A stretch of 64,000 bases of DNA from Gordius sp. MW1 (taxonomy: Eukaryota > Nematomorpha > Gordioida > Gordea > Gordiidae), in contig OZ038527.1 in assembly GCA_964036665.1 (NCBI GenBank), positions 19,056,221-19,120,220 on the forward strand, read 5' to 3'. Positions 21,326-58,142 of this stretch are shown one piece after another. Every line of letters begins with the position of its first letter. The first letter of the stretch is position 1. The translations under genes were made by a program, and so were the position numbers. The notes beneath the pieces were generated by a model. That model worked only from the letters and a program-made list of their open reading frames with translations, had not been told where the DNA came from and did no database searches.

Positions 21326-23597
21326 ATGAATAAGGAGATCGTTGTTGTCCCTGGCAAAAATTGGAATGAAAAGTGTCAAAACGCGTTAAAAGATGAGCTT
21401 TTAATAGATGTCCATTTTTTGGTATATTTTGATTATATTAATTTATTTTCTTTTTAGTTTGAAGAAGATGGCAAAGTTGTAACTCATAAGGCTCACAAAT
21501 TTTTATTAGCAATGAGTAGTCCTGTTTTTCACGCAATGTTTTATGGGCCTACAGCTATTTCCAAAACCGCGGAAGAGATTACTGTTGTGTCAATTGAGGA
21601 TATATCTTCCCAAGTTTTTGCCATCTTATTGGAGTAAATTAAATATTATAATTAATTTTATCACCATAATATCGTGATTTCTTATTTATTGTGCCAATTT
21701 AGCTTTATATACCACCAGGAAAAATTAATCAACATGAACATTGGTAATTTGGAAGGCTTAGAACGTGCCCAATTTTTAAACGACCTTTTGTATGCTGCAA
21801 AGAAATATATGTTAGATGACATTAGAAAAGTAATTGGGAATAAAATAAATTCAGAAATAGTGTTAATAAACGCTTATTATCTTTTGTGTCAAGAAAAATT
21901 ATTTCACGAGGAAATTAGTCGCAGTACATGCTGGAAGGTATAAAAATTATTACATAAATACTTTGATTTAACTATTTTCTATAATTAGTTAAATCAATAA
22001 TGAAAACTTGTAGGGGAAACTGAGGAGAGGATATAAGAGCCGTATAAAATTAAAAATATTTTTTTTTATTTTCCGTTAGAATATATTTTTAAGATGTATT
22101 TTTAATGTAGGAAAAATATTATAAAACTTTTTTATATATTTCTTCCATAAATTGAGGAAAAAGTCAAAATCCCCTGGTAATTCAAATTCTTATTTAAGGG
22201 ATAGAATGACCTCAATGTTCACTTTATTTTTAAAAAGTGATTATTTTACTATAAAAAAGATAGAAATAATAATGTTTATATTTTACCCATTACATTACAA
22301 CTATAAAATGAGTTAAGATGACAACCTGATTTGTGAATAAAAGACGGATTTTACTACAATGGAAACGTGTGTTAATAGTATATTTATGTATAATCCTATT
22401 TCACTTCTAAATAAATAATTTCATATACGAAAAAAGATGTTTGTAAATCTGTATTTGTGAGGTAAGACTTCGTATTAATTTTAAAAATGATTACAACTAG
22501 CCCTGGGGTATAGGCTCGGTCTCCCCTAGTTTAGATAAAATTTAAGACCCATTTAATGCCAGAATTTAAAGGTAACTATAATTGTTAATTTAGGTTGGGC
22601 TTTTACCTATACATACATGATGCTACATTGTATATTATTGCTTATCATACTCAGAACAATTAAGTTAGAATAAATTTAAAACTTAATTTTTGCATAATGG
22701 TCGTAGTAATTGGTGAGATGACTTTAAAAAATGTCGACTAAAATTAAAATTTATTACTTGTAGGTATTGTGGGAAAATGGTGAAAAATTTATCAAATCGG
22801 ATTCCTTTTTGAATATGACGGCCGAAGATTTATTGAGTTTTCTGATCGCCGATGACTTAATTGCACAAGATATTGATTTATTCCAAGCTGTTTTAAAATG
22901 GGCTAATTATAACATTAAAAAAAGAGATGAAGTTATCACGCCCAGCCAGTTAAGAGCATTTATTGGAGACGATATTATCAATGCTATTAGATACCCGCTG
23001 ATTAGTGTAAATGACTTTCAAGATATGATTGTTAAATCTGGCTTACTTAATCAAGAAGAAATAATAGAAGTCCTTTTTTCTTATTTTGGAAAAAGTGAAT
23101 CAAATAGATTAAACAAATTTATTACCAAGTCCCGAAAGCGAAACTTGGAAACATTTATCTTTGTTACTGTGACTCAGAATCAGCGAACGTCATATCCCGC
23201 AGAAGATTACTTTTCGATTGAAAGTAATGCATTAGTGAGTATAAAAATTCACGGCATATACATACTAAATCCTTGGGCCTCAAATTATCATTCAAATTAT
23301 CATTCTACCACTGATTATGAGATTAAGTTATATGATCAAAAGGAAGTTCTTTTAACTTCCATTTATTTACCCCATGGTTCTTATAATAGCAGCGAATCCT
23401 ATGTTAGAGTGAATTTTATAAATCCTATACCCATTGAAATGAATGTGCAAACGAAGTGCTTCAAAGTGCAAACCAGTTCGCCAATATCATCTTCCTATAA
23501 AATTGAATCTTGTCATAGCATACAATTTGGATCAGCAGTTTTTAGTCTAAATAACGCTAGGCTTAATAAATACTTATGCGGAATAATTTTGGAATAA
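21326..23597 (+). CDS. BTB-BACK-PHR protein, copy 1 (BTBD3/BTBD6-like)
   Basis: Four exons join in frame: 21326-21421, 21458-21633, 21703-21937 and 22764-23597, giving 446 residues. Introns are 36, 69 and 826 nt, all GT-AG. Residues about 20-125 form a BTB/POZ domain (LLIDVHFL, THKAHKFLLAMSSPVFHAMF, FAILLDFIY). A BACK-like helical region follows (LLYAAKKYMLDDIRK, VLWENGEKFIKSDSFLNM, LFQAVLKWANYN). The last 135 or so residues match the beta-rich PHR pattern (YFSIESNALVSIKIHGIYIL, ESYVRVNFINPIPIEM). Proteins of this design recruit substrates to Cullin-3 ubiquitin ligases in the cytoplasm; that role is inferred. Each copy has a splice-acceptor-like TTTTAG five bases before ATG AAA/AAT, so a 5'UTR intron or a spliced leader is possible. 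Exon 4 differs from copies 2 and 3 mostly by amino-acid changes. Confidence 0.9.
22009..22531. mobile_element. Old MITE in BTB copy 1 intron 3
   Basis: The left end CTTGTAGGGGAAACTGAGG and the inverted right end AACTAGGGGAGACCGAGCC are diverged relatives of the AGTAGGGGAGACCGGGG ends. It is shared with unit 2, and unit 3 keeps only its right half. It accounts for most of intron 3. Confidence 0.55.
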
Positions 23598-24274
23598 ATC
23601 AAAAGTCAATAAAAATATGCAATTTTTATCTTAAAAATTTGGTAATAAAAATTTTATTTCATTACTGTAAATTAGATTTTATTATTGAGATATTGTAGAA
23701 TAAAACTACCTTAGTTATAAAATGTGATTATAATATCTTAATGTATTATGGCCATATTAGAGCACACAATTTACACTTGTTGCCAATATCGTGGTTTTAC
23801 TAAATGGCGTGATTTGATTAGTTTCAATTAATTGCCTAAAACCCTTATTGCACTTAAAATTTTACTTAGATGATTTAATTTTTTATGTCAAGAGAATTAA
23901 TTGCGACTCTAAATTCAAATTAAAAAATCTTTGCTAACATATTATTGCATTACATCCCATGGTAGCATATTCATATTTGGGACATCCTAGGTTAACGCGG
24001 CTCTTAAATAAACTTAAACCCATATTATGGTTAGTTAAATAATAAGTTTTTTCTCACTTTTTTAATTTTTTGGGCTTATATTGACAAATCGAAACACATT
24101 AAAACTTTAATGTAAGGAAATTTATAGGAGAATTTATAAATTAAAATATCTACAAACTAAACTACTTTTACAGGCGCTCAACCAGGATTTTCTCAAGGGG
24201 GTGGGAAAACATTTTCAAATTTATTTTTATAGTTTTTATTAATAATATAATAAAGAGGAGAGATCAAAAAAATC
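23598..24274. other. 3' flank of BTB copy 1
   Basis: No gene is seen. The AT-rich downstream flank is shared in diverged form with units 2 and 3 (46,192-46,850 and 58,143-58,800). The stop TAA is followed by AATAAAAAT at about 23,644, a possible poly(A) signal region. Confidence 0.4.
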
Positions 24275-24645
24275 CGACGGCCCATGGGCCGGGCCATCGT
24301 CTTAAAGTTAGATTTTCTGGCGGGCCCGAGCGGGACCTTAACAAGATTCGAGCAACACGGGCTTAATAAGACTTTTTATATAATGTATTATATTGTTTTT
24401 GGGTACTACTTTGTCACCTTTTTATTTGATTGTATATTATTTATTAGACGTATTTCTTATCTTAAAAAACAAAAATTGTATAATTTTTCCAAAATATAAC
24501 AAAATTACTGTTAAAAAGTTTAGAAGTTGGGCAGGTTCGTACATGGCAGGGAGGACTCTAGCAGGCCCGGGCGGGCAATTTAGTTTCTAAATCGGACCGA
24601 CCTGGGTTCAGGCAATTTTTTTTTTACAAATCTGACTTCTAAAAG
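24275..24645. repeat. GC-rich element remnant downstream of BTB copy 1
   Basis: The segment starts AAATCCGACGGCCCATGGGC and ends near CAAATCTGACTTCTAAAAGG. GGCGGGCCCGAGCGGGACC and GCAGGCCCGGGCGGGC patches flank an AT-rich core. It resembles a decayed member of the CAGAGGTCGGATTTG family and is shared by all three units (46,855-47,262 and 58,805-59,217). Confidence 0.55.
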
Positions 24646-24694
24646 GATGTGAATTCTGGGTATAAAATATAAAACGTTATAAAAAATAAATTAC

Positions 24695-24785
24695 GCCCTT
24701 CGGGTGTAACTGGGGGCTTCGCCCCCAGACCCCCTTGGGGGCTCCGCCCCCAGTCCCCCGTTGGTCGCCCCCAGACCTCCGTTTA
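24695..24785. repeat. GC-rich perfect hairpins at the composite element end
   Basis: CTGGGGGCTTCGCCCCCAG and GGGGGCTCCGCCCCC are perfect hairpins with TTC- or TCC-type loops. They are followed by CAGTCCCCCGTTGGTCGCCC. They lie in otherwise strongly AT-rich DNA, at the 5' boundary of the unit 1 insertion. Confidence 0.7.
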
Positions 24786-25608
24786 GCCAATGACAGTCCC
24801 TGTTTTTTATTTTTATTAACTTTTTATTACTTTTTTTAATTACTAATTTTTTACTTATCTTTGTTTATAATATTCTCATACACATCTATTACTCTTTTAT
24901 ACTATGTATAAACAAAGCATATTTGCTATGCAATTTATGTTGGGATAGCAAATAAAAATAATTGCAAAAGCTAAATAAACTCGCCTTGACTCAATCTATA
25001 GCTATAATGTTTTATCTTTTACTTAGGTTAACCCTGTACTAATTTATTGGCGTCAAAGAAAGTATCATTAAACCCAGAAATTACTAAGCAAAATGAATAG
25101 GCATATTATATAAATTGGGATAATTGCTAGGATGGCTTAAAATCAATTAAAATTTGCATAGCAATTAATAATACAGTAATAAAAAGTAACAATTAATAAA
25201 ATTAAAAAACTAACTTTATTAATGGAAAATTTAAAAAAAGGCTTACGACGAAACTAGCAGCGACATGCAATAGCTCCGCTATTGCCTGTTACGACCGCGC
25301 ATCTAAAAATGTCACAGGTATCGGAAGTATATCCCAAAAATTTGCAGGTGCTAAATTGTTCCATTGGTCAGCAGCCGGCGGGCGGTCTATAAATACATAA
25401 GAGTAAAAAAAAACGAAAAAAAATTTCGATCCACATTTTGGCCAATGGTCATTTTTTCCTTGGGCAATGGTCATTTTTTTTATTGGTCAGCAGCCAACAC
25501 GGTAAAAGTAGATATAAATACATAATAGTCAAAAAAAAACGAGAAAAAATAAATTTCGCTTCACATTTTGGCCAATGATCATTTTTTTCATTGGTCAGAA
25601 GCCAGAAC

Positions 25609-26902
25609 TAGTGTTTCGATCTCGTCTCGTCTCGGTCCAAAAACAAAATCTCGTCTCGGGAGCGATTAGAAAAATCTCGATCTCGTCTCGGTCTAGAAAA
25701 ATCTCGGTCTCGTCTCGTCTCTGCGAGAATTCTCGTCTCGTCTCGACTTTATTAAAAACATATATATGGAATAAAAATTTCTCCTGTTTTGTTAAATACA
25801 TTAAATAAGTGTTAAAAATCCAAATTTCAAACTTTTATATTCTGTGAAAAATTTTAATAAATAAACCTTTTAAAGATTTAGCGGGACACGACATCTCATT
25901 GACAATATATAGATAAGAATAATTCATAAAGATAACATTTTCTGGAAGTGCAGACTAAACAAAATAAATAAGTTTAAAGTATTAGTAATTGAATTTTATC
26001 GTTTTAGCAAATTATAACATTTGTATTAAATTCACAGTGTTTTTCAACTATAAATAGACTTAGAAAATTATAATTGGCAAACGTTTAAGTCCATTGATAT
26101 TGCCATGCCAATTAATGATAAAAATCATTAAATCAAATTTATATTCCAAATAATTACCTTCATATTCTAATGACTTTGCCATTAAATAGTTATTTATCGT
26201 ACAATAAAGGTTCGTGTATTGATTTTGTATTGCACAATTATAGATATTATAGTAAATTTGAATGCACCTGCCAACCCAGCTTATAATGTGAAAAGTAAGT
26301 AATATAAATAGATTAATTAGTTTTGGATTCTTACCTTATTTATAATATATGAATTATAGAATAGTTCATGAAGTCCATATATAGCCACGCGAAAGTAAAG
26401 GGAATCAAATAATCCTAGGAAAAAACTACATATTCCGGGAAAATACATATCTCTATAGTTGAAGCATAAAAACTTCTAGAAAACTCATGATTTAAGATTT
26501 AATCTAATACGGTGTCATTAAATACTCTATTTTACTTTTGAAATTGTTAGGCGGGTGCTCAAAAATATCGAGCTATAGTTGATGCATAAAAACTTGTAGA
26601 TATATATATATTTACTACACTTAGGAATTTTTTTAATATCAAATATATTCCATACATATTGATTTACACTTAATAACTTAAATGTAAATCATGCAAATTA
26701 TAATACACAATAATTTACTATAATCTAACGATCAATAAAAAGTCGAGATCTCGCCAAAAAAATCTCGTATCGTCTCGTCTCGACATCAAAATTCTCGTCT
26801 CGATCTCGACTCCATTTTTCCAATTCTCGTCTCGTCTCGTCTCGGTTTTTCGAGACGAGACGAGACGAGACCGAGATTTTTCTCGGTTTTTCTGCACCAC
26901 TA
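25609..26902. mobile_element. hAT-type element with CTCGTCTCG arrays, nested
   Basis: The ends TAGTGTTTCGA and, inverted, TAGTGGTGCAG are flanked by a perfect 8-bp duplication GCCAGAAC (25601-25608 and 26903-26910). Arrays of TCTCGTCTCG and its inverse occupy about 150 bp inside each end; the right array is itself partly palindromic (GTCTCG...CGAGAC, about 26,825-26,875). The core is AT-rich and non-coding. The target is the tandem repeat array of the composite insertion, so this element is younger. A sister copy is at 37082-38688. Confidence 0.87.
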
Positions 26903-26910
26903 GCCAGAAC

Positions 26911-27830
26911 AAGGTAAAAGTGGATATAAATACATAAGAGTCAAAAAAAAAATTCGCTTCACATTTTGGCCAATGGTCATTTTTTCCATTGGTCAGAGCC
27001 AGGACACGGTAAAAGTGGATATAAATACATAAGAGTCAAAAAAAACGAAAAAAAGAATTTCGCTTCACATTTTGGCCAATGGTCATTTTTTCATTGGTCA
27101 ACAGCCAACGGACGGCCAAAAGCCATATTATTAATGGTATTAACAAGAACAGTCATTATAGTCAAAATAAAACGAAAAAAATTATTACGATTCACATTTT
27201 AGCCAATGGTCATTTTTTTCCATTGGTCAGCAGCCAACGGACGACCAAAAAGCCATAATAGCAATAGTAGTAACAAGAAAAAGAGTCAAAAAAAAACGAA
27301 AAAAATAATTTCGATTCACATTTGGCCAATGGTTATTTTATTCCATTGGTCAGCAGCCAACCGACGGCCAAAAAGTCATATTAGCAGTGGTAGTAACAAG
27401 AACAATATATTAATTTAAAAAAAAAATAAAAAATAAAATTTGGCCTCTCCGGAATTCGGACCCACATCAGGAGAGGCATCGGCTTTTGAAGGGGGGGGGG
27501 CACAGGGACCCATATCAGTAGAGGTATAGGCTCTTGTAAAGGGGCACAGGTTAATTATTAATTTCAACCCCCCCCCCCCCCAAAAAAAAAAAAATTTCGA
27601 TTCACATTTTGGCCAATGGTCATTTTTTCTAATGGTCAGCAGTCAGCGGACGACCAAAAAGTCATTTTATCAGTGGTAGTAACCAAAACAATCATAAGAG
27701 TCAAAAAAAAAAGGAAAAAAATAATTTCGATTCACATTTTGGACAATGGTCACTTTATTCCATTGGTCAGCAGCCAGCGGACGGCCAGAAAGGCATATTA
27801 TCTATGGTATTAACAGGAACAATATATTAA
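26911..27830 (+). repeat. Tandem array of 105-130-bp CCAATGG hairpin repeats
   Basis: Each monomer has GGCCAATGGTCATTTTTTCC followed by ATTGGTCAGCAGCCA, so CCAATGG pairs with CCATTGG around an AT loop. It continues with either a CACGGTAAAAGTGGATATAA arm (short form) or a GGACGGCCAAAAAGTCATA arm (long form), then AAGAGTCAAAAAAAACGAAA. The same array starts before the nested hAT element (25,360-25,608). A further monomer is at 28,250-28,345. Open frames through the array are by-products of the repeat. Confidence 0.85.
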
Positions 27831-28955
27831 TATGATTTAAATAATTTTAAAAAAAACTCAGGCCTTCGGCCCTCGTGGGAAGGGGGTGAAGGGAAGGGGG
27901 GACGACTCATCTATACTCCGTATAAACGTAGCATATTTGCTATGCAATTTATGGGCGAGAAAGGTGGGAAGGGGCGAGAATGCCCATAGGGGGGTATTAA
28001 ATGCAAAATTATTAGTTAATTATTAATTTATATAAATATTTAAAAAGTTAAATGGTATTAACAAGAACAGTATTAATTTAAAAAATTTGCCCTCGCCGGG
28101 ATTCGAACCCACATCAGTAGAGGCATAGGCTTTTGTAGGGGCACAGAGACCCATATCAGTAGAGGCGTAGGCCCTTGTAGGAAAGGGCATAGTGTAATTA
28201 TCAATGTTAACCTAATATACCCAATTCAAAAACGAAAAAATAAAATTTCGATTTATTTGGCCAATGGTCATTTTTTCATTGGTCAGTAGCCAGCGAACGG
28301 TCAAAAAGTCATATTGTCAATGGTATTAACAAGAACAAAATATTGATTTAATTTAAAAAAAAATTAAAAAAAATTCGTCCTCTCCTGGGATTGAACTCTA
28401 GACCTCCAGGTCACAAAGCTGGCGCCATAACTTGGTGGACAGACAACGGACGGACAACAAAAAACGAGCCCATAAATTGCATAGCAATTAATAATTACTT
28501 TACTATCGGGGGGAAAAATATAGAGAATTCATTTAGTCGCTAAATTGGTTCCATAAAGAGTATTTACTGTTTAATTAACAGTAAAATTATAAACTTTTTT
28601 TTAGCTGGAAGAATTTAGAAACTCCAAAAATCTCTAACAATCTTGGAGCTACATCCGCCCCCTCGACATTTATTAAATAATAGTGTTTGTTTCTTAATTT
28701 TGTTTTTCATTCGAATCGACAGTTAATATTAATATTCTAACACAGCGAGGGAGATAGAGATGAGGGGTGGGGCACATCTTATGCATTAATTTAAAAAATC
28801 GAAGCGTGTGTAGATTAATTGGGTGCGGACTGCGTTACGTTACTTCGGAGGTGCGTTACGTTACTTCGGAAAATGGAAAGCGAGCCCATAAATTGCATAG
28901 TAATTAAAATTTTGGCCTCTCCGGGTATCGAACCCCATATCTAGAGAGGCATAAG
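27440..28955 (-). repeat. tRNA-like B-box segments in the composite element
   Basis: Four minus-strand segments carry B-box-like motifs next to CTCTCC- or CCCTCGCC-type ends: GGGTCCGAATTCCGG (27,455), GGGTTCGAATCCCGG (28,100), GAGTTCAATCCCAGG (28,390) and GGGGTTCGATACCCGG (28,930). None folds into a complete cloverleaf. The pattern suggests decayed tRNA-derived SINE heads or tails picked up by the element. Confidence 0.35.
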
Positions 28956-29060
28956 CGTTAAGCGTGTGTAGATGCGGTGCGCTTCACGTTAGGTGCGTTA
29001 CACGTTCGGTGCGTGACTTCGGAAAATGGAAAGTGAGCCCATAAATTGCAAGCAATTAAT

Positions 29061-31005
29061 AGACATTATAAAACGAGGTTAATTTATCTTTTGCGCTCAG
29101 CGATTTTCTATTTAGAAATTTTCCCGAGGTGCGAACTATTCATGTTAATAATGCCAATCCATTTTATCGATGCACTTAGTGGGGAGTAAAAAGGTTTATT
29201 TATATTAGGCAGTGGCTTAACATTTTGTAAGTTGTTAGGGTGTCGAGAGCATTCTTGGAACGACAGGTCTCTTAAGTTTCAGACAAAGCCATAAATTATA
29301 AGACATCTTATTTTAGTTGATGTTTGTGTCATTTAAATCACTTCAGTGCCCAAAATAAATTCATGAATTTTTGGCACAATAATTGGCGGATCTTCAAGTT
29401 AAGTAGAACTTTTTATATCGAAAACCGTTCCTTAACTTGTATAACGAAGTATTCGATCAAGGAGATGAAAATTGCTAATTTATATAAACCTCAATGGATT
29501 TAGTTAAAATAAGTACGAAAATGTTGCTTCATAAATCTAGGTTGAGAGTTAACATTAAAATTTTGCTTTAACTTTTGAAGGATGTATAGCTGAAAAATTT
29601 ATTAAGATATGAAAGGAAAATAAGTAAATTCTGATTGCCGGGAGTACTACCCTTACAATTTTTAAAATTGCTACTTACTAAGTGTAGAAATTTTGTGGGG
29701 AAGATGCTCAATCAAATTATTTTTGCGCAAATAAACAAGTGAATTTCGAAAAATGAGATTAATGATAAAATATTTTTTTGTCTAAAATTTAATTCAAACA
29801 GGAAAAGTATATATAAACATTTAAAGTATTTATGAGTGTCTTAGTCTTTTATACACTATAAATATTTAAAATTCATTTAATAATTTATTTATTAATCAAA
29901 TTTTTTTAATTTTTGCTAAGGGAGGGGGGATATCTGCTCCCCCCTCCTTTGCGCATGCGGTCGGCATAAGGAGCCACTAAAATAAGAAAGTCGATTTATT
30001 GTTTATTTTTTAAATATTTTTTGTTAAATACTGGAGGCTCAAACTTTGCCGCGATTTCGCATAGGGACTAATTGGATTTTGATATATATGAAAAAGTAAT
30101 AAAAATAGGGGGAAAATTATTTCTTAATGTTTTACCCTAAGTTGGTTCTACGACTTAGAGGTTTAAATTTTTTAGCTATTCAATTTCGCCTTAAAGAGCG
30201 TCAAAAAAGGCCAAAAACGGTCATTTTCGCAAATTTGAATCAAAATATTTCAAAAACCGGACGTATAGGCAAAAAACCGAAAAACATATTTGTGTTCACC
30301 ACAAATAACTCTATCAGAATATGTTGACCGTTTTCCGGTTGATTTTTTTTTAAACCTGTGATATTATAGTTCAGTTGCATAAAAGATTTTAGACACTGAT
30401 AAGAACCTGGAAATAAAATATATACATTAAATTTTTTAATTTTTCGACAAAATGCATTGTATTCCGAATATGCTAGCGAAAATTGCTATGAAAAAAACTT
30501 GGTTCAAAATTTTTTTGTGAAAACACCAGACTGCCCCAGGAAGTGGCTAACTAAGAGATTATGTTTAATAGAGAAATGAAGTATGCATGAATGAAGCTAC
30601 AAAATGTTTTTTAATGTTCAGTATTTTATTATTCTGCTTTTCTTTAGTAGTATGAACACTCGCAATTTCTAAAGGAATTGTAAAATTAAATTATTAATAA
30701 TCTTTATTACTTAGATTTGACCTATATTAGCATTTTCCTCTTCAATTTTCATTTCATTACACGCACTAGGGATGTAAAATTTTTGTATAAATAGTCTTAG
30801 ATTTAGTAGATGTTCATCTATGTTTAAATCTCAAATTAAGTAAGGTAATTTAATTCTACCAACGCAACACTAACAAAACTCCTATTAATATCATCGAGTT
30901 TTTCCAAATTGGAAAAATTATGAAATTATGTGGGGGGGGGGGGGCGGGTGTCATTGAGTATTTCCATATAAATCGGATATGTTTTTGTCAATGGAGGGGT
31001 GGGGT
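29061..31005. other. Downstream flank of unit 1 and unique DNA
   Basis: 29,061-30,050 is homologous to 47,310-48,246 plus 50,148-50,330 in unit 2 and to 59,255-60,400 in unit 3, marking the end of the duplicated block. 30,050-31,005 is unique, AT-rich, with no supported gene. G- or C-runs lie at 29,922-29,945 and 30,931-30,945. Confidence 0.45.
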
Positions 31006-31179
31006 CATGGGCGTAGGCAGGTTTTGGATTAGGGAGGGGGGGGGGGCGAAACGTTTAAAATTTCAATCGGGGGGGGGCAAAAATTAATTTTTTTTAATTT
31101 TTAAGGGTTTTTGCATAGGAAAAATTATTTTCGTCATTAAGGGGGGGGGGCCGCTGCCCTTCCCTTGGCTACGCCCATG
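31006..31179. mobile_element. MITE, CATGGGCGTAGCCAGG family
   Basis: The ends CATGGGCGTAGGCAGG and TTGGCTACGCCCATG are flanked by GGTGGGGT (30998-31005) and GGTGGGAT (31180-31187). Long G-runs lie inside the ends. Confidence 0.78.
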
Positions 31180-32401: not shown

Positions 32402-32554
32402 TTATTGTATTTTATAATTTAGAAAATATTAATAAAAAACAATGAGTAGAGTGTAAAGTCAAAACATTTTAATAAATTATAGACCCATCTCAATTTCTAA
32501 AAACAAAATCTTATAACCTAAAACCCCGACCTAAAACACTAAGCCTCCTGACCA

Positions 32555-32925: not shown

Positions 32926-32971
32926 ATCGTGATCAGTTCTGACCAATTTGACTGCTTTTTTCTGCGACTTT

Positions 32972-38688: not shown

Positions 38689-38699
38689 GTAACAAGAAG

Positions 38700-39209: not shown

Positions 39210-39217
39210 GTATGGGG

Positions 39218-43873: not shown

Positions 43874-46191
43874 ATGAAAAAGGAGATCGTTGTTGTCCCT
43901 GGCAAAAATTGGAATGAAAAGTGTCAAAACGCGTTAAAAGATGAGCTTTTAATAGATGTCCATTTTTTGGTATGTTTTGATTATATTAATTTATTTTCTT
44001 TTTAGTTTGAAGAAGATGGCAAAGTTGTAACTCATAAGGCTCACAAATTTTTATTAGCAATGAGTAGTCCTGTATTTCACGCAATGTTTTATGCTAGTCT
44101 ATGGTTTTATGGGCCTACAGCTATTTCTAAACCCGCGGAAGAGATTACTGTTGTGTCAATTGAGGATATATCTTCCCATGTTTTTGCCATCTTATTGGAG
44201 TAAATTAAATATTATAATTAATTTTATCACCATAATATTGTAATTTCATATTTATTGTGCCAATTTAGCTTTATATACCACCAGGAAAAATTAATCAACA
44301 TGAACATTGGTAATTTGGAAGGCTTAGAACGTGCCCAATTTTTGCACGACCTTTTGTATGCTGCAAAGAAATATATGTTAGATGACATTAAAAAAGTAAT
44401 TGGGAATAAAATAAATTCTGAAATAGTGTTAATAAACGCTTATTATCATTTGCGTCAAGGAAAATTATTTCACGAGGAAATTAGTCGCAGTACATGCTGG
44501 AAGGTATAAAAAATTATAACATAAATACTTTGATTTAACTATTTTCTATAATTAATTAAATCAATAATGAAAACTTGTAGGGGAAACTGAGAATATAAGA
44601 GCCATATAAAATTTAAAATATATTTTTTTTATTATCCGTTAGAATATATTTTTACGATGTATTTTTAATGTAGGAAAAATATTATAAAACTTTTTTATAT
44701 ATTTCTTCCATAAATTGAGGTTAAAAAGTCAAAATCCCCAGGTAATTCATATTCTCATTTAAGGGATAGAATGACCTCAATGTTTTCACTTTATTTTTAA
44801 AAAGTGATTATTTTACTATAAAAAAGATAGAAATAATAATGGTTATATTTTACCCATTACAACTATAAAATGAGTTAAGATCACAACCTGATTTGTGTAC
44901 AAAAGACGGATTTTACTATAATGGAAACGTGTGTTAATAGTATATTTATGTATAATCTTATTCTATTTCACTTCTAAATTAATAATTTCATATACGAAAA
45001 AAGATGTTTGTAAATCTGTATTTGTGAGGTAAGACTTCGTATTAATTTTAAAAATGATTACAACTAGCCCTGGGGGGGGGGGGTATAGGCTCGGTCTCCC
45101 CTAGTTCAGATAAAATTTAAGACCCATTTAATGCCAGAATTTAAAGGTAACTATAGTTGTTAATTTAGGTTGGGCTTTTACCTATACATACATGATGTTA
45201 CATTATATGTATATTATTGCTTAAATCGTACTCAGAACAATTAAGTTAGAATAAATTTAAAAATTAATTTTTGCATAATGGTCGTAGTAATTGGTGAGAT
45301 GACTTTAAAAAATGGCGACAAAACGATTAAAATTAAAATTTATTACTTGTAGGTATTGTGGGAAAATGGTGAAAAATTTATCAAATCGGATTCCTTTTTG
45401 AATATGACGGCCGAAGATTTATTGAGTTTTCTGATCGCCGATGACTTAATTGCACAAGATATTGATTTATTCCAAGCTGTTTTAAAATGGGCTAATTATA
45501 ACATTAAAAAAGGAGATGAAGTTATCACGCCCAGCCATATCAGAGCATTTTTAGGCGAGGATATTATCAAAGCTATTAGGTACCCGCTGATTAGTGTAAA
45601 TGACTTTCAAGATACAATTGTTAAATCTGGCATATTTAATCAAGAAGAAATAATAGAAGTCCTTTTTTCTTATTTTGGAAAAAGTGAATCGAATAAATTA
45701 AACAAATTTATTACCAAGTCCCGAAAGCGAAACGTGGGATTATTTTTCTTTTCTACTCCAACTTATGAACGTAATTACTCAACATCATATCCCGCAGAAG
45801 ATTACTTTTCGATTGAAAGTAATGCATTAGTGAGTATAAAAATTCACGGCATATGCATACTAAATCCTTGGACCTCAAATTATCATCCAAGTTATGGTTC
45901 TAGCACTAGTTATAAGATTAACTTATATGATCAAAAGGAAGTTCTTTTAACTTCCATTTATTTACCCCATAGTTCTTATAATAGCACCGAATCCTATGTC
46001 AGGTGAATTTTATAAATCCTATACCCATTGAAATGAATGTGCAAACGAAGTGCTTCAAAGTGCAAACCAGTTCGCCAATATCATCTTCCTATAAAATTGA
46101 ATCTTGTCGTAGCATAGAATTTGGATCAGCAGTTTTTAGTCTAAATAACGCTAGGCTTAATAAATACTTATGCGGAATAATTGTGGAATAA
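43874..46191 (+). pseudogene. BTB-BACK-PHR copy 2, frameshifted in the last exon
   Basis: The exons are 43874-43969, 44006-44199, 44269-44503 and 45353 onward. One base missing near 46,002 (TCAGGTG where copy 3 has TCAGAGTG) creates TGA at 46004-46006 after 392 residues. About 61 residues of the PHR-like domain are lost, and they remain open in another frame to 46,191. The BTB exon also has an 18-base in-frame insertion (44,094-44,113 region, adding ASLWFY after HAMFY), next to a repeated ATGGTTTTAT/ATGTTTTAT. The BTB domain and BACK region are otherwise intact, so a truncated protein could still be made. Before the lesion, exon 4 encodes the same residues as copy 3. Exon 3 differs at several residues, which points to gene conversion or recombination within intron 3. 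Confidence 0.88.
44576..45106. mobile_element. Old MITE in BTB copy 2 intron 3
   Basis: This is the orthologue of 22009-22531, with a G-run expanded to 12 at 45,073. Confidence 0.55.
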
Positions 46192-48246: not shown

Positions 48247-48269
48247 TTAATTGCTATGCAATTTATGGG

Positions 48270-48330
48270 CTCGTTTTTTGTTGTCCGTCCGTCCGTCCGT
48301 CTGTCCGTCTGTCCGTCCATCCCTATCTAT
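48270..48330 (+). repeat. GTCC microsatellite
   Basis: GTCCGTCCGTCC followed by GTCTGTCC-type units lies directly after the TTGCTATGCAATTTATGGGC end of the element. Shorter GTCCGTTGTCC versions follow the same end at 54,825, 54,947 and 55,066. Confidence 0.85.
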
Positions 48331-48484
48331 TTGCATTGGGTATATTAGGTTATCGATTTTTTAAATTAATGCATGAGAAAGAGGTGCCACACCCCTCATC
48401 TCTATCTCCCTCGCTGTGTTATTTTTTAAATTAATGCATAAGAGGTGCCCCACCCCTCATCTCTATCTCCCTCGGTGTGTTATA

Positions 48485-48750
48485 TATAAGATTTGTTAAA
48501 TTATCTATTATATAATAAACATAAATAAAAGTTGTTTACTTTTAATTGCTATGCAATTTAACTAGTTATATAATAAACATAAATAAAAGTTGTTTACTTT
48601 TAATTGCTATGCAATTTAACTAGTTTTTGTTATATAATAAACATAGATAAAAGTTGTTTACTTTTAATGCTATGCAATTTAACTAGTTATATAATAAACA
48701 TAAATAAAAGTTGTTTACTTTTTAATTGCTATGCAATTTAACTAGTTTTG
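48485..48750 (+). repeat. Minisatellite, about 58-65-bp unit, with hairpin
   Basis: Four to five units of TATATAATAAACATAAATAA plus AGTTGTTTACTTTTAATTGC plus TATGCAATTTAACTAGT are seen. Each contains ATTGC-TAT-GCAAT, a short hairpin. One further unit lies at 48,977-49,036. Confidence 0.88.
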
Positions 48751-48839
48751 GTGTTAGAATTTCGGAGTTTTTTTTTACTCTTATGATTGTTCTTGTTACT
48801 ATCATTGATAATAAGAATTTTTGGCCGTCTGCTGGCTGC

Positions 48840-49740
48840 TGACCAATGAAAAAAATGACCATTGGCCAAAATGTGAATCGAAATAATTTTTTTCGTTTTT
48901 TTTGACTATTATGATTGTTCCTGTTTCTACCATTGCTATTATGACTTTTTGGCCGTCCGCTGGCTGCTGACCAATGTTATATAATAAACATAAATAAAAG
49001 TTGTTTACTTTTAATTGCTATGCAATTTAACTAGTTTTTGGGTTAGAATCCCGGAGTTTTTTTGACTCTTATGATTGTTCTTGTTACTATCACTAATAAT
49101 AAGACTTTTTGGCCGTCCGTTGGCTGCTGACCAATGAAAAAAATGACCATTGGCCAAAATGTGAATCCGAGTTTATTTTTTCGTTTTTTTGACTATTATG
49201 ATTGTTCCTGTTACTACCATTGCTATTATGACTTTTTGGCCGTCCGCTCGCTCCTGACCGATTGAAAAAATGACCATTGGCCAAAATGTGAATCGAAATT
49301 ACTTTTTTCGTTTTTTTTTGACTATTATGATTGTTCCTGTTCCTACCATTGCTATTATGACTTTTTGGCCGTCCGCTGGCTGCTGACCAATGGAATAAAA
49401 TGACCATTGGCCAAAATGTGATTCGAAAACTTTTTTTTCGTTTTTTTTTGACTATTATGAATTTATATCCACTTTTACCGTGTCCTGGCTGCTGACCAAT
49501 GGAAAAAATGGCCATTGGCCAAAATGTGATTCGAAATTTTTTTTTTCGTTTTTTTTACTCTTATGAATTTATATCCACTTTTACAGTGTGCTGGCTGCTG
49601 ACCAATGGAAAAAAATGACCATTGGCCAAAGTGAGCATCAAAATTTTTTTTTCCGTTTTTTTGGCTATTATTGACTTATAGAGTATCTGTTGGTACTGAC
49701 CAATAGAGAAAAAGTGACCATTGGCCAAATTTTTGATTTT
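48840..49740 (-). repeat. Tandem array of CCAATGG hairpin repeats (unit 2)
   Basis: GACCATTGGCC occurs at about 48,858, 49,144, 49,271, 49,405, 49,511, 49,617 and 49,719, giving spacings of about 105-135 bp. It is in inverse orientation to the array at 26,911-27,830. The long-form monomers lie on the left and the short-form monomers on the right. Confidence 0.87.
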
Positions 49741-50820
49741 TTAATTAAAAATTGTTCAAATTCAACAAAAAATTTCTCCCAACAATTCTGCAAATTCTTA
49801 ACATTGTGTTGTTTTATAATATAATGTTTGTTAGACCCATAATCACTAAAGGCCATAAAAACTAATGTAATACGAAACTAGATGCAAACACTAAATCTAA
49901 CCCTAACCCTTGCCTATATTACATTTTGCCTTTATTACATTTTGCCTATAATGGAAAATTTGTATAAATAATTAATTAATCATTAGGCATTTAATACCCC
50001 CCTATAGGCATTCTCGCCCCTTCCCACCTTTCTCGCCCATAAATTGCATAGCAAATATGATACATTTATACACAGATGAGTCGTCCCCCCTTCCCTTCCC
50101 CTCTTCCCTTCCCTTCTCCCCCTTCCCACGAGGGCCGAAGGCCCGAGTTTTTATTTATTAATCAAATTTTTAACCCGCTCCCTCTCCCCAGGCTACCTAA
50201 GCACATGCGGTTGAGGTGGGGAGCCACTAAAACTCGGCCATTAAATATAAAATAATCGATTTATAATTTATTTGAAAATTCTTTAGATATTTTTTTTTAA
50301 TACTAAGAGAGCCCGCTTTCGAAGTAACTACAAGGTTATCAGCAAATTTTTTTATTATATGGGATATTTTATATGAATTATTAATATTATAGGCAAATAT
50401 ATTCTCAATTAAAAAAAGTGCACTTGATGCAGGGTTGAATTTTATTGTTACAATTTTATTTCGATATAATTTGGATACGAAAATGATCATAAAAGAATTA
50501 ATAAATGATATTGAAGGCTCAATAAAACTGTCTCTTAATTATTAATTACATATAAGTTTTCAAGGATAACCAAAATGGGCATCAAATGCTTCTAGAATCC
50601 ATTCTTCTCATTATGGGATAACATAAAAGTAAGTTGGCCTTAAGTGCCATTACAATTTTGCTAAAGGCTTTTTATTTTTACTCATTTAAATCTCTAGTAA
50701 AAATAATGCATTAATTTAGAAAAATATCATGTTAGACAAATAAGACTTCAATTTTTACAGCCCAGAGTTAGAAAACCATAAAGCCAGTTGCACATTCTTA
50801 ATACTATTTTGGCAGATGAC

Positions 50821-51671
50821 TAGAGCTGTTAAAGTTCATCTATGATACGAACTAGTTCAAGTTCATAGTTCATTTTGAAAAAAATTATTAGTTCAAGTTC
50901 TTATTTTTTTAAAAGGTAACAGTTCAAGTTCATGTAGGAAAAAGTGTAACTATTATTTCAAGTTAATAGTTCAATTTTATAAATATAACTAGTTCAAGTT
51001 CAGTTCAAAGTTCAGTTCATTTTTTTAAATATGATAAAGTTTAAATCTAATCCAAGGGATTTTAGGAAATGATTTCTGAATTAAAATCAGTTTTTTTGAA
51101 TCCTATCCAAAATTTTAAATAAATTTTAGTTTATAAATTATAAATTTGAAAATCTAATTTAAGGCAATATTCATATATAACAAAAGCATCAACTATACAA
51201 TGTTTAAAATATTTATTACAAACAATGTGAACTGGATTTTAATAAAATATTGTTTTTAAAATTATCATTTAATAAATAAGAACGTTTATCTCCAAATATA
51301 AGTTTTCCCAAACTGAAAAACTTTTCAACTGGAGCACTAGATGGGAGGCAAACGTTATATGTGATAAAAATTTGTTTTGGATTTGGAAATTCATCAAATA
51401 TCAAATGAGGTATTAATGAGTTTAATATAGTCTTCAATCATTTCTTTATTAGAATTATCACGTCTTATATCTAAGAAATCTAAACCATTGTGTGTATGCA
51501 CTTTTATACTCGTTCCTATTATCTACTTGAGAGCAAATACTTGAGTCACTATTGATATCTATCTTTTCTAATTACAGGCTTTTATAAATTACATTAATTA
51601 GCTAAACTTATTAAGTGCTGACAATAAAACAAGCAAGAATTTTTTTGTGTTTTTAAAATCAAAAATGCGCG
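50821..51671 (-). mobile_element. hAT element truncated by the unit 2/unit 3 junction
   Basis: It starts TAGAGCTGTTAAAGTTC and contains repeated AGTTCAAGTTCATAGTTCA motifs. The full-length sister is 60867-61996. Here the left arm is cut off where unit 3 begins. Confidence 0.8.
51216..51437 (-). pseudogene. hAT transposase dimerisation-domain fragment (unit 2)
   Basis: The minus strand reads NVCLPSSAPVEKFFSLGKLI then FGDKRSYLLNDNFKNNILLK. The SSAPVE.FFS.G.L...KR..L...F...L pattern is the C-terminal hAT dimerisation region. No upstream transposase frame is intact. Confidence 0.82.
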
Positions 51672-52244
51672 GATATTTTAAATTTTATTTTTTCCAAACA
51701 AAAAATTTCTTCATTATACCTTATAAAAACATACACATATGGTTTAAATTTTATTCATATATCATTATTATTTCTAAAAATAATTACAAAGATAATAGTA
51801 ACCCTGACATACAATTAGCCCCGGTCTCCCCTACTCTCGAAGGTTTATATATAATTATATATTTCCTTTGAAATTAAATTGAAATAAAATATGGGATGTA
51901 ACGGAATTTTGTTAACAAATTAAATTGATTAAATGAATGTTTGATAAAAATTATTAATTTTAAATGTAAAGGTTCTAAAATTAGCAGGTTTTATTTTTTT
52001 ATATTTATTTAATCCTAGCCCTGCTTAAATGAATATCTTATAAATAAAGCAATTAGAGGTAAGCGCGGGCCTAATTTTTTATTCACGGCCCGCCCACTCA
52101 CGGTGGTATTAAAAAAAATTCACGCCCACTCACGCTTACCACTAAAATTTTTTTGACCCGACCCGCCCGCTCACGAAAGGCTAAAATTCGACCCTTACTC
52201 TAGAATTAGGCACGAGTTCGAATGGTATTAACTTTTATCTAGAT

Positions 52245-52968
52245 CAGGGGTAGGCAACGCGGCGCCCGCGGGCAATGCGCCCTCGCTGGATTAATGTAAA
52301 TGTATGATATGAGCGTATCTAATAACACGCGTATTTTTTGTTAGTGTGTGATCGTATTTCGAATAGACCACGCGTAGACCGTGCATTTAAAACTACCAAG
52401 TAATCAGAAATAATTCTTTTCTTTCAAAACCCTTCATGGATAAATGTAAAAGAAAAAGAACATATTATTTCAACGATGAATGGGGACATCTATATTGTTT
52501 CGTTGATTACAAAGGGAAGTGTATTTGTTTGTTGTGTAATAAGTGTTGCGATCCCCAAGAAAAGTAATATTGAACGACATTTTAAGACCGTTCATACAAA
52601 TTTTGATAGTGACTATCCAATGAACTCTGAAATTAGAAGACAAAAAATTATTTCTTAATCTTCAAGAACTAACCAGCAAAGCCTTTTTACTAAACCACTG
52701 CAACAACATAAAGCAGCAACGATCGCGTCATTATCGCATTTGCTAGCTAAGAATAAAAAACCATTTACAGATAGAATATAAGAAATTAGCTGAAAATATG
52801 GACACCCAAGTTTCACATTGAATTATATGTATTATTATGTATGACACCAACAAAATAAAAAAAATCTGTTTTTTTGATGCCTATTTATACCTGTTGATTA
52901 TCTGTAAAATATGCGCCCTCGGTGGTTTTCAAATTTAGTATTGCGCCCTTAAGGACAAACAGGTTGCA
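52245..52968 (+). mobile_element. hAT element (GTF2IRD2/ZBED-type) inserted in unit 3
   Basis: It starts CAGGGGTAGGCAACGCGGCG and ends near GGACAAACAGGTTGCAG. AGATCA is present on both sides, and units 1 and 2 have the uninterrupted site (TCTAGATCATTATC). The CAGGGGT(A/C)GGCAAC start is typical of a widespread animal hAT lineage. The right terminal repeat is degenerate. Confidence 0.78.
52436..52780 (+). pseudogene. N-terminal BED-type zinc finger fragment of a hAT transposase
   Basis: The first frame (52436-52567) reads KRKRTYYFNDEWGHLYCFVD, then KGKCICLLCN. After a shift, the next frame reads VAIPKKSNIERHFKTVH, then FDSDYPMNSEIRRQKI, a stop, and TKPLQQHKAATIASLSHLLA. The C..C...H....H arrangement and the NxERHFxTxHxxFDxDYP block are characteristic of GTF2IRD2/ZBED-like hAT transposases. 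At least one frameshift and one stop make it dead, and most of the catalytic part is absent. Confidence 0.85.
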
Positions 52969-52993
52969 GATCATTATCTTATTATGAACTCAT

Positions 52994-53118
52994 CATGGGC
53001 GTAGCCAGGTTTTGGATGGGGGGGGGGCGAAACGTTTAAAACTTCAATGGGGGGGGGGGGGGCAAAACCTAATTTTTTTTTTGCGTCATTTTGCCCCCCC
53101 CCCCCGGCTATGCCCATG
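52994..53118. mobile_element. MITE, CATGGGCGTAGCCAGG family (unit 3)
   Basis: This is the orthologue of 20779-20936 with an internal deletion. It keeps both ends. Confidence 0.75.
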
Positions 53119-53462
53119 AACATCATATTTAGATTATTGCTGTAAAATTAGAAAATTAAATCCTACACTGAAAACATACAAGTTCTTGAGCCAAAGTCTC
53201 AGGGTAACTTACCTATCAGATCAATGAAAGATAGTTTTAGCACAGCAATTGTCCCTTTGGTAGAGGATGCAACTTTAAGCTATGATTTAAAACTTCTAAC
53301 GCTCAATTTTACTCAAATCCACTATTTTTCCTAATAAACATTTATTATTTCAAAATAGTATTGATAATTATAACATAACATGATTATTTTATCAATTAAA
53401 ATATTTTAAATGTATTTAAATTCCAAACTATTTTTCATACTTTTTTTAAACTTTTAGCTAAA

Positions 53463-56400
53463 ATGAATAAGGAGATCGTTGTTGTCCCTGGCAAAAATTG
53501 GAATGAAAAGTGTCAAAACGCGTTAAAAGATGAGATTTTAATAGATGTCCATTTTTTGGTATGTTTTGATTATATTAATTTATTATCTTTTTAGTTTAAA
53601 GAAGATGGCAAAGTTGTAACTCATAAGGCTCACAAATTTTTATTAGCAATGAGTAGTCCTGTTTTTCACGCAATGTTTTATGGGCCTACAGCTATTTCTA
53701 AACCCGCGGAAGAGATTACTATTGTGTCAATTGAGGATATATCTTCCCAAGTTTTTGCCATCTTATTGGAGTAAATTAAATATTCTAATATTAATTTTAT
53801 CACCATAATATCGTGATTTCTTATTTATTGTGCCAATTTAGCTTTATATACCACCAGGAAAAATTAATCAACATGAACATTGGTAATTTGGAAGGCTTAA
53901 AACGTGCCCAATTTTTAAACGATCTTTTGTATGCTGCAAAGAAATATATGTTAGATGACATTAGAAAAGGAATTGGGAATAAAATAAATTGCGAGATAGT
54001 GTTAATAAACGCTTATTATCATTTGCGTCAAGGAAAATTACTTCACAAAGAAATTAGTCGCAGTACATGCTGGAAGGTATAAAAAATTATAACATAAAAA
54101 CTCGGGCCTTCGGCCCTCGTGGGAAGGGGGAGAAGGGAAGGGGAGGGGAAGGGAAGGGAAGGGAAGAGGGGAAGGGAAGGGGGGACGACTCATCTGTACT
54201 TCGTATAAATGTATCATATTTGCTATGCAATTTATGGGCGAGAAAGGTGGGAAGGGGCGAGAATGCCTATAGGGGGGTATTAAATGCCTAATGATTAATT
54301 AATTATTTATACAAATTTTCCATTATAGGCAAAATGTAATATAGGCAAAATGTAATATAGGCAAGGGTTAGGGTTAGATTTAGTGTTTGCTTCTAGTTGC
54401 GTATTACATTAGTTTTTATGGCCTTTAGTGATTATGGGTCTAACAAACATTATATTATAAAACAACACAATGTAAAGAATTTGCAGATTTGTTGGGAGAA
54501 AACTTTTGTTGAATTTGAACAATTTTTAATTAAAAAAATCAAAAATTTGGCCAATGGTCACTTTTTCTCTATTGGTCAGTACCAACAGATACTCTATAAA
54601 TCAATGATAGCTAAAAAAAACGGAAAAAAAAATTTTGATGCTCACTTTGGCCAATGGTCATTTTTTTCCATTGGTCAGCAGCCAGCACACGGTAAAAGTG
54701 GATATAAATTCATAAGAGTAAAAAAACGAAAAAAAAAAATTCCAAATCACATTTTGGCCAATGGTCATTTTTTTCCATTGGTCAGCAGCCAATTGCTATG
54801 CAATTTATGGGCTCGTTTTTGGTTGTCCGTCCGTTGTCCGTTGTCCGTTGTCCTCCCTATCTATTTGCATTGGGTATATTAGGTTATCGCTTTTTTAAAT
54901 TTCTATCTATTAATTGCTATGCAATTTATGGGCTCGTTTTTGGTTGTCCGTTGTCCGTCCGTTGTCCGTTGTCCGTTGTCCTCCCTATCTATTTGCATTG
55001 GGTATATTAGGTTATCGCTTTTTTAAATTTTAATTGCTATGCAATTTATGGGCTCGTTTTTGGTTGTCCGTTGTCCGTCCCTATCTATTTGCATTGGGTA
55101 TATTAGGTTATCGCATTTTTAAATTAAATGAGAAAGAGGTGCACCACCCCTCATCTCTATCTCATGCATAAGAGGTGCCCCACCCCTCATCTCTATCTCC
55201 CTCGGTGTGTTATATATAAGATTTGTTAAATTATCTATTATATAATAAACATAAATAAAAGTTGTTTACTTTTAATTGCTATGCAATTTAACTAGTTATA
55301 TAATAAACATAAATAAAAGTTGTTTACTTTTAATTGCTATGCAATTTAACTAGTTTTTGTTATATAATAAACATAGATAAAAGTTGTTTACTTTTAATGC
55401 TATGCAATTTAACTAGTTATATAATAAACATAAATAAAAGTTGTTTACTTTTAATTGCTATGCAATTTAACTAGTTTTGGGGTTAGAATCCCGGAGTTTT
55501 TTTTGACTCTTATGATTGTTCTTGTTACTATCATTGATAATAAGAATTTTTGGCCGTCCGTTGGCTACTGACCAATGAAAAAAATGACCATTGGCCAAAA
55601 TGTGAATCAAATTATTTTTTTCGTTTTTTTTTGACTATTATGATTGTTCCTGTTACTACCATTGCTATTATGACTTTTTGGCCGTCCGCTGGCTCCTGAC
55701 CGATGGAAAAAATGACCATTGGCCATAATGTGAATCGAAATTATTTTTTTCGTTTTTTTTTGACTATTATGATTGTTCCTGTTACTACCATTGCTATTAT
55801 GACTTTTTGGCCGTCCGCTGGCTGCTGACCAATGGAATAAAATGACCATTGGCCAAAATGTGATTCGAAAACTTTTTTTTCGTTTTTTTTTTGACTATTA
55901 TGAATTTATATCCACTTTTACCGTGTCCTGGCTGCTGACCAATAGAAAAAAATGACCATTGGCCAAAATGTGATTCGAAAATTTTTTTTTCGTTTTTTTT
56001 ACTCTTATGAATTTATATCCACTTTTACCGTGTGCTGGCTGCTGACCAATGGAAAAAAATGACCATTGGCCAAAGTGAGCATCAAAATTTTTTTTTCCGT
56101 TTTTTTTGGCTATCATTGACTTATAGAGTATCTGTTGGTACTGACCAATAGAGAAAAAGTGACCATTGGCCAAATTTTTGATTTTTTTAATTAAAAATTG
56201 TTCAAATTCAACAAAAAATTTCTCCCAACAATTCTGCAAATTCTTAACATTGTGTTGTTTTATAATATAATGTTTGTTAGACCCATAATCACTAAAGGCC
56301 ATAAAAACTAATATAATACGCAACTAGAAGCAAACACTAAATCTAACCCTAACCCTTGCCTATATTACATTTTGCCTATATTACATTTTGCCTATAATGG

Positions 56401-58142
56401 AAAATTTGTATAAATAGTTAATTAATCATTAGGCATTTAATACCCCCCTATAGGCATTCTCGCCCCTTCCCACCTTTCTCGCCCATAAATTGCATAGCAA
56501 ATATGATACATTTATACGAAGTACAGATGAGTCGTCCCCCCTTCCCTTCCCCTCTTCCCTTCCCTTCCCCTCTTCCCTTCCCTTCCCCTCTTCCCTTCCC
56601 TTCCCCTCTTCCCTTCCTATCTCCCCCTTCCCACGAGGGCCGAAGGCCCGAGTTTTTTATATATTTCTTCCATAAATTGAGGTTAAAAAGTGAAAATCCC
56701 AGATAATTCATATTCTTATTTAAGGGATAGAATGACCTCAATGTTTTCACTTTATTTTTAAAAAGTGATTATTTTATTATAAAAAAGATAGAAATAATAA
56801 TGGTTATATTTTACCCATTACAACTATAAAATGAGTTAAGATGACAACCTGATTTGTGTATAAAAGACGGATTTTACTACAATGGAAACGTGTGTTAATA
56901 TTATATTTATGTATAATCTTATTCTATTTCACATCTAAATAAATAATTTCATATACGAAAAAAGATGTTTTTAAATCTGTATTTGTGAGGTAAGACTTCG
57001 TATTAATTTTAAAAATGATTACAACTAGCCCTGGGGTATAGGCTCGGTCTCCCCTAGTTTAGAAAAAATTTAAGACCCATTTAATGCCAGAATTTAAAGG
57101 TAACTATAATTGTTAATTTAGGTTGGGTTTTTACCTATACATACATGATGCTACATTATATGTATATTATTGCTTAAATCATACTCAGAACAATTAAGTT
57201 AGAATAAATTTAAAAATTAATTTTTGCATAATGGTCGTAGTAATTGGTGAGATGAGATGACTTTAAAAAATGTCGACTAAAATTAAAATTTATTACTTGT
57301 AGGTATTGTGGGAAAATGGTGAAAAATTTATCAAATCGGATTCCTTTTTGAATATGACGGCCGAAGATTTATTGAGTTTTCTGATCGCCGATGACTTAAT
57401 TGCACAAGATATTGATTTATTCCAAGCTGTTTTAAAATGGGCTAATTATAACATTAAAAAAGGAGATGAAGTTATCACGCCCAGCCATATCAGAGCATTT
57501 TTAGGCGAGGATATTATCAAAGCTATTAGGTACCCGCTGATTAGTGTAAATGACTTTCAAGATACAATTGTTAAATCTGGCATATTTAATCAAGAAGAAA
57601 TAATAGAAGTCCTTTTTTCTTATTTTGGAAAAAGTGAATCGAATAAATTAAACAAATTTATTACCAAGTCCCGAAAGCGAAACGTGGGATTATTTTTCTT
57701 TTCTACTCCAACTTATGAACGTAATTACTCAACATCATATCCCGCAGAAGATTACTTTTCGATTGAAAGTAATGCATTAGTGAGTATAAAAATTCACGGC
57801 ATATGCATACTAAATCCTTGGACCTCAAATTATCATCCAAGTTATGGTTCTAGCACTAGTTATAAGATTAACTTATATGATCAAAAGGAAGTTCTTTTAA
57901 CTTCCATTTATTTACCCCATAGTTCTTATAATAGCACCGAATCCTATGTCAGAGTGAATTTTATAAATCCTATACCCATTGAAATGAATGTGCAAACGAA
58001 GTGCTTCAAAGTGCAAACCAGTTCGCCAATATCATCTTCCTATAAAATTGAATCTTGTCGTAGCATAGAATTTGGATCAGCAGTTTTTAGTCTAAATAAC
58101 GCTAGGCTTAATAAATACTTATGCGGAATAATTGTGGAATAA
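53463..58142 (+). CDS. BTB-BACK-PHR protein, copy 3 (BTBD3/BTBD6-like)
   Basis: The exons are 53463-53558, 53595-53770, 53842-54076 and 57303-58142, all in frame, giving 448 residues. Introns are 36, 71 and 3,226 nt. The domain order is as in copy 1: BTB (residues about 20-125), BACK (THKAHKFLLAMSSPVF, YAAKKYMLDDIRK, VLWENGEKFIKSD) and a C-terminal PHR-like beta region (ESYVRVNFINPIPIEM). Distinctive changes in exon 3 include K for E after EGL, G for V after IRK, and C for S after KIN. The third intron is inflated by a 2.55-kb fold-back element that replaced about 170 bp seen in the other copies. If splicing tolerates this, the protein is complete. Function as a Cullin-3 substrate adaptor is inferred from the family. 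Confidence 0.85.
54117..54190 (+). repeat. Purine-rich GGGAAGGG tract
   Basis: GGGAAGGGG-type repeats sit directly after the terminal hairpin of the fold-back element. The inverse CCCTTCCCC tracts are at 50,085-50,130 and 56,535-56,630, so the tract is part of each element end and varies in length. Confidence 0.85.
55225..55475 (+). repeat. Minisatellite with ATTGC hairpin (unit 3)
   Basis: Four units of the same 58-65-bp sequence as at 48,485-48,750, including a shared variant unit (ACATAGATAAAAG and TTTTAATGC). The two arrays therefore derive from the same source. Confidence 0.87.
55545..56180 (-). repeat. Tandem array of CCAATGG hairpin repeats (unit 3)
   Basis: GACCATTGGCC occurs at about 55,586, 55,714, 55,840, 55,950, 56,060 and 56,161, with spacings of about 127 then 110-100 bp. 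A partner array in inverse orientation is at 54,545-54,790. Confidence 0.87.

Follow-up and report, generated by a model that had tools for sequence, protein, structure and literature searches.

Is the half of a protein that would recognize its targets being diversified by selection in a tandem cluster of BTB-BACK genes in the nematomorph Gordius sp. MW1, or do its many amino acid differences have another origin? The window analyzed here is a stretch of 64,000 nucleotides (nt) from contig OZ038527.1 (C1:19056221-19120220), within a 211.8-Mb assembly of 12 contigs. It carries three tandem BTB-BACK copies on the forward strand, starting at positions 21326, 43874, and 53463 and built on the same four-exon layout. 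They are the first three of seven related tandem copies at about 19.08-19.19 Mb on C1, all of which fit within about 115 kb. With moderate confidence, we read them as members of a lineage-specific tandem BTB-BACK family, probably of Cullin-3 adaptors, whose target half appears to be diversifying and is remixed by gene conversion between copies.

Copy 1 sets out the gene plan, with a spliced protein of 446 residues. Exon 1 (21326..21421) holds the ATG start codon and the start of BTB, with an open spliced frame and a GT donor, exon 2 (21458..21633) continues BTB, and exon 3 (21703..21937), placed by its splice sites and the spliced frame, ends it. Exon 4 (22764..23597), a 277-amino-acid (aa) open frame running to the stop, encodes BACK, a variable linker, and a C-terminal region that is predicted to be beta-rich (the beta region below). 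Pfam recognized BTB (PF00651, 1.7e-15) and BACK (PF07707, 9.7e-10) in the spliced protein, BACK followed BTB in all 13 family members scanned, and the closest solved BTB was that of BTBD6 (4.5e-12). AG acceptors and GT donors are kept in all seven C1 copies, and the tandem array of three four-exon copies given in the preliminary description of the window stands.

Selection was examined across exon 4 in copies 1, 3, 6, and 7, leaving out the frame-shifted copies 2, 4, and 5, with a purpose-written codon model rather than codeml. BTB and BACK are constrained in the C1 copies; the linker and the beta region carry no net constraint. The ratio of nonsynonymous to synonymous rates (dN/dS, omega) was 0.38 in exons 1-3, which encode BTB (p versus 1 = 3.5e-4), and 0.36 in BACK (p = 3.8e-4), while neither the linker at 1.81 (p = 0.16) nor the beta region at 1.11 (p = 0.70) differed from 1. 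A value of 0.37 was rejected for the beta region (2.5e-5), and exon 4 as a whole gave 0.75 (p = 0.10). In the comparison of site models, M2a was favored over M1a in the beta region (p = 0.0015), in linker plus beta region (2.9e-6), and in exon 4 (3.4e-5), with p = 0.56 in BACK and p = 1 in exons 1-3; with a C4 copy added, the beta region gave p = 0.018 and linker plus beta region 3.3e-7. Eight alignment columns had a posterior above 0.9, five of them in the linker (23145..23189 in copy 1) and three in the beta region.

These site-model results support, without proving, the presence of positively selected codons in the linker and beta region. When the synonymous rate was allowed to vary, p was 0.048 for the beta region, 1.8e-4 for linker plus beta region, and 0.011 for exon 4; with double hits allowed as well, the values were 0.055 (beta region), 0.007 (linker plus beta region), and 0.81 (BACK). 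Dropping columns near gaps left the signal in place (beta region 8e-4, linker plus beta region 3e-4, exon 4 0.026). None of 30 neutral simulations of linker plus beta region on mosaic trees, which cover the uncorrected statistic only, reached the observed 25.5, the maximum being 14.5.

Several observations weigh against diversifying selection of the target half. Exon 4 could be used from only four of the seven C1 copies, one of which lacks an ATG, and omega reached its upper bound of 30 in some M2a fits (exon 4, and linker plus beta region with the C4 copy). The site signal was gone (p from 0.86 to 1) once codons with two or more differences in any pair were dropped (17 of 125 in the beta region, 27 of 154 in linker plus beta region, 40 of 270 in exon 4); this filter removes the fastest codons by design, and the evidence for selection therefore rests on multi-hit codons. 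The 95% point of the simulations, nominally 6.0, came out at 8.0, so that nominal p-values here are too small under mosaicism. More diverged relatives also differ from the C1 copies: beta-region omega was 0.45 in four C5/C3 copies (a clade) and 0.50 in five C5 copies (b clade), both significantly below 1. In the b clade M2a was favored in the beta region (p = 0.004) and also in BACK (p = 0.009), so the beta-region result is not specific. The a-clade test left out a5_932 and a3_1115, treated one stop in a5_936 as missing, and used an incomplete a5_939; the b-clade test left out b5_2188 and used an incomplete b5_2184. The test proposed for paralogues across the assembly gave the predicted contrast between constrained and unconstrained parts in the C1 copies; the values in these two clades count against it.

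Two further comparisons, each of a single pair, point the same way. Copies 2 and 5, the freshest duplicate pair and one with a frameshift common to both, differ at 7 of 839 positions in exon 4 against 1 of 2,376 elsewhere in the gene and its near flanks (p = 5e-4), with six of the seven changes in five codons that differ in residue and four within seven bases. This pattern points to conversion or complex mutation feeding changes into exon 4 without selection on an intact product. Copies 1 and 3 were the pair from which an excess of amino acid changes in exon 4 had originally been read. The replacements reported between them (PSQLRAFIGDD/PSHIRAFLGED, DMIVKSGLL/DTIVKSGIF, and an unlike block before TSYPAEDYF) are all present, and most exon 4 differences do change the protein: 42 are nonsynonymous and 8 synonymous by Nei-Gojobori counting. 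Over 662 and 169 sites, however, these numbers match the neutral expectation (Fisher p = 0.59), and neither exons 1-3 (p = 0.29) nor intron 3 (p = 0.23) is significantly different from exon 4.

Copies 1 and 3 are mosaics. They differ at 4 of 154 positions in the 5' flank (2.6%), 17 of 507 in exons 1-3, 2 of 36, 1 of 69, and 31 of 656 in the three introns (4.7% in intron 3, leaving out a 2.5-kb insertion in copy 3), 50 of 834 in exon 4 (6.0%), and 109 of 624 in the 3' flank (17.5%). The introns are similar, as first described; of the flanks said to be very similar, the 5' one is and the 3' one is not. With divergence ranging from 2.6% to 17.5% along the gene, the introns are no clean neutral clock, and the suggestion that they serve as the neutral reference had to be dropped. 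Nor do the flanks agree as clocks. Nonsynonymous divergence of exon 4 between copies 1 and 3 lies far below that of the 3' flank (p = 4e-10), and in the beta region it lies above the 3' flank for copies 3 and 7 (p = 0.013) and below it for copies 1 and 7 (p = 0.054) and copies 3 and 6 (p = 8e-10).

The differences are also unevenly placed within exon 4. Copies 1 and 3 show no difference over its first 159 bases, and 17 differences fall within 60 nt (p = 0.0005, none of 2,000 permutations as high); the length of the longest identical run was likewise significant (p = 0.0015 in 2,000 permutations). In a BACK block at 22923..23107, 13 of the 16 differences from copy 3 are unique to copy 1 among the aligned copies; in the linker, the remaining copies contrast with copies 2, 3, and 5. 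Exon 4 of copy 3 (57303..58142; 279 aa) and that of copy 2 (45353..46191) are the same (0 of 839 differences) apart from a deletion in copy 2, and their third introns differ at 30 of 670 positions. Within the window, exon 4 accordingly occurs in two distinct versions rather than three.

Runs of unexpected identity were assessed with our own GENECONV-like permutation test. Copies 3 and 4 shared a run at exon 4 alignment columns 247-382 (global p = 0.0002), copies 2 and 3 one that spanned exon 4 and the 3' flank to the alignment end in the whole-gene test (global p = 0.0002), and copies 1 and 3 one early in exon 4 (global p = 0.026). In one separate case, short gene conversion over the linker occurred outside the C1 array. 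Two C3 copies 13 kb apart, C3:11134291 (L042) and C3:11147316 (L047), are identical for 102 nt across the linker and 10-28% different in the other 60-nt windows of exon 4. The first of them differs from C5:9364010 (L043) at only 0-3 of 60 bases in most exon 4 windows and at 9 of 60 and 8 of 57 across the linker. Within the linker C5:9364010 resembles its C5 neighbor at 9386426, so that either copy may have been the one overwritten.

Several family copies are decaying, with frameshifts, a lost start codon, and truncations. Copies 1, 3, and 6 are open throughout; copies 2, 4, and 5 are frame-shifted in exon 4, in copy 4 within the linker and in copies 2 and 5 through a common 1-nt deletion. In copy 2 this deletion, near 46000, breaks the frame after ...ESYVR, and the open frame ends at 46006. 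Its other exons lie at 43874..43969 (exon 1, from splice sites and the spliced frame), 44006..44199 (exon 2, lengthened in frame by an 18-nt insertion that copy 5 also has), and 44269..44503 (exon 3, from the donor and comparison of copies). Copy 2 is therefore not intact. Copy 7 has ACG where the other copies have ATG; extra partial exons 1-3 with an ATG lie upstream of it (L036 4023-4540), and splicing from these is possible. Exon 4 of copy 5 (L034), set against window positions 45353-46191, shows four substitutions in seven bases; a complex mutation, a micro-conversion, and an assembly error are the alternatives for this cluster.

How far, then, can these genes be explained without selection for new targets? 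Gene conversion combined with relaxed constraint is a serious contender, to which we assign a sizeable probability short of an even chance. In that case, blocks of exon 4 would have arrived by conversion from paralogues or alleles that are diverged, lost, or unassembled, and the C-terminal half of these redundant copies would be weakly constrained, with no positive selection. The divergence mosaic along the gene, the significant conversion runs, and the C3 linker tract are as expected from such a process; so are omega values of 1.11 and 1.81 that do not significantly exceed 1, the dependence of the site signal on multi-hit codons, the concentration in exon 4 of the differences between the frame-shifted copies 2 and 5, and the several broken copies. 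Because nominal p-values are too small under mosaicism, our confidence in a diversifying target half is slightly lowered and that in conversion without selection slightly raised. On the other hand, no donor was found in the assembly, among the best candidates scored, for either the copy 1 BACK block (next best 92%) or the copy 3 linker (next best other version 85%). With rate variation and double hits allowed for, linker plus beta region still favors omega above 1 (nominal p = 0.007), none of the 30 neutral mosaic simulations reaches its uncorrected statistic, and BTB and BACK of these same genes stay constrained. What remains of the diversifying selection put forward in the preliminary description is this contrast between constrained and unconstrained parts, together with site models that favor codons above 1; the null result for copies 1 and 3, the conversion mosaics, the multi-hit dependence, the low beta-region values in diverged clades, and the pattern in copies 2 and 5 all count against it.

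Ordinary tandem duplicates on their way to becoming pseudogenes, with recognition playing no part, make a quite unlikely explanation. Three frame-shifted copies of seven, the ACG of copy 7, and four C4 copies that match part of exon 4 with two TAA each are what it would lead one to find; BTB and BACK omega values significantly below 1, splice sites kept in seven of seven C1 copies, and open frames throughout copies 1, 3, and 6 are not. At the opposite extreme, the short hypervariable linker and beta-loop patches might be exchangeable cassettes in a system of germline diversification, swapped between copies by gene conversion over about 100-140 nt, with selection for new target specificities to follow. 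We regard this as improbable; if true, the family would do inside the cell what immune receptors diversified by gene conversion do.

Under the reading we prefer, that of an adaptor family with a diversifying target half, the domains suggest docking of BTB on Cullin-3, a role for BACK in positioning the C-terminal region, and binding of the target by the linker and beta region. Duplication and short conversion tracts homogenize and remix exon 4 blocks among copies, and the likeliest driver may be recognition of changing targets, for example proteins of parasites or selfish elements.

The nature of the C-terminal region bears on this scheme. The preliminary description assigned it to PHR, which Pfam does not support: PF08005 matched none of 13 members at E values up to 1. 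In a genome scan with PF08005, only two pieces exceeded the Pfam cut-off; both lie on C5 near 5.61 Mb, where the same strand has a BACK match upstream of them. Alignment of profiles (hhalign) to the BTBD2 PHR chain 3no8 gave a weak match (score 23.9, E = 0.0027, probability 11%) that none of 60 shuffled chains equaled; this genome's own PHR scored 12.2 in the same comparison, as high as which 21 of 60 shuffles came. AlphaFold models of two window proteins had predicted local distance difference test (pLDDT) values of 39 and 31, too poor for a fold search, and when 13 exon 4 sequences were used for a profile search of the PDB, only weak matches came back (E 0.0077 to 0.21), three in the BACK part and one to a cellulosomal scaffoldin. 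The region may, from these low-confidence models, be beta-rich and is possibly PHR-derived; the PHR label is unproven, and we refrain from classing the family as BTB-BACK-PHR. For the complete copy 1 protein, Pfam gave BTB, BACK, and a subthreshold ACCA match only, with no MATH domain before BTB, and it found no kelch repeats in copy 1 or in the 13 members.

Related adaptors of nematodes and plants, the MATH-BTB and F-box families, were reportedly treated by Thomas in 2006. Later papers that cite Thomas 2006 describe the substrate-binding domains of Caenorhabditis elegans F-box and MATH-type adaptors as being under positive selection (PMC4334554, PMC5392922) and their cullin-binding domains as not (PMC4334554). 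The present family resembles those, for which an immune role has been proposed, in its lineage-specific expansion and, if our reading holds, in the contrast between its halves; unlike MATH-BTB proteins, it has no MATH domain that we found, an N-terminal BTB followed by BACK and the C-terminal beta region, and conversion over the linker. If the adaptor reading is true, the rule by which the cullin-binding half is fixed and the target half diversifies would reach a different BTB architecture.

With BTBD1/2/3/6 the family shares BTB-BACK and a putatively beta-rich C-terminal part, the closest solved BTB (BTBD6), and the weak profile similarity to BTBD2 PHR. Stogios et al. (2005; PMC1257465) expect PHR to bind the target in BTB-BACK-PHR proteins, of which they report between four and seven in each metazoan genome; here, PHR goes undetected by Pfam, and matches to the family lie in at least 28 places. 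The BTB-BACK adaptor layout is likewise that of KLHL (BTB-BACK-kelch) proteins, from which the lack of kelch repeats by Pfam separates it. Chlamydiae are reported to have expanded F-box and BTB families with M0 dN/dS of 0.29-0.63 and no support for positive selection (PMC4209131). These bacterial families are similarly expanded, ubiquitination-related, and subject to birth-and-death evolution, and they indicate that such expansions need no diversifying selection. Among the open-access matches listed, no title or opening of an abstract described a fast-evolving expanded BTB-BACK family with gene conversion, which does not establish absence from print. The compact C1 locus could let population sequencing separate selection from gene conversion.

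Beyond C1, an assembly search with copy 3 exon 4 returned at least 31 matches, which we grouped into at least 28 places: seven on C1, four partial ones on C4, 12 on C5, two each on C3 and C2, and one on C6. The search scored best candidates only, so these counts may be lower bounds, and the weakest matches, among them C2:520861 (25% identity over 94 residues), may belong to different BTB-BACK genes. The alignment of 13 family sequences (A2) left out copies 2, 4, and 5 (frameshift), the four C4 copies, a5_936, a3_1115, a5_939, and b5_2184 (stop or incomplete), and the places behind L029, L030, L032, and C5:21768918. The partial C4 copies of exon 4, at 181778, 302617, 1549238, and 1686644, lie two per strand, as if perhaps carried by a larger repeat.

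Copy 3 has its first three exons at 53463..53558 (from splice sites and the spliced frame), 53595..53770, and 53842..54076 (both from the donor and comparison of copies), and its third intron holds the 2.5-kb insertion (54103..56652, no strand assigned), which is absent at the corresponding place in copies 1 and 2. The insertion has 644-nt inverted arms (54148-54791 and 55929-56572) that are 98% complementary, with tandem arrays inside, and related sequence occurs at 48.3-50.1 kb and near 27 kb of the window; it looks like a foldback-type mobile element. Elsewhere in the window, a 111-aa open frame at 2179-2514 with a likely membrane-spanning stretch by eye matched nothing in Pfam above the cut-off (Orf78 came closest, weakly, at E = 0.053), and Rfam at gathering thresholds gave no match within the window. 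TTAGG arrays were not found in the assembly, which contains 24,188 exact overlapping TTAGGG 30-mers, including an array at the start of C1.

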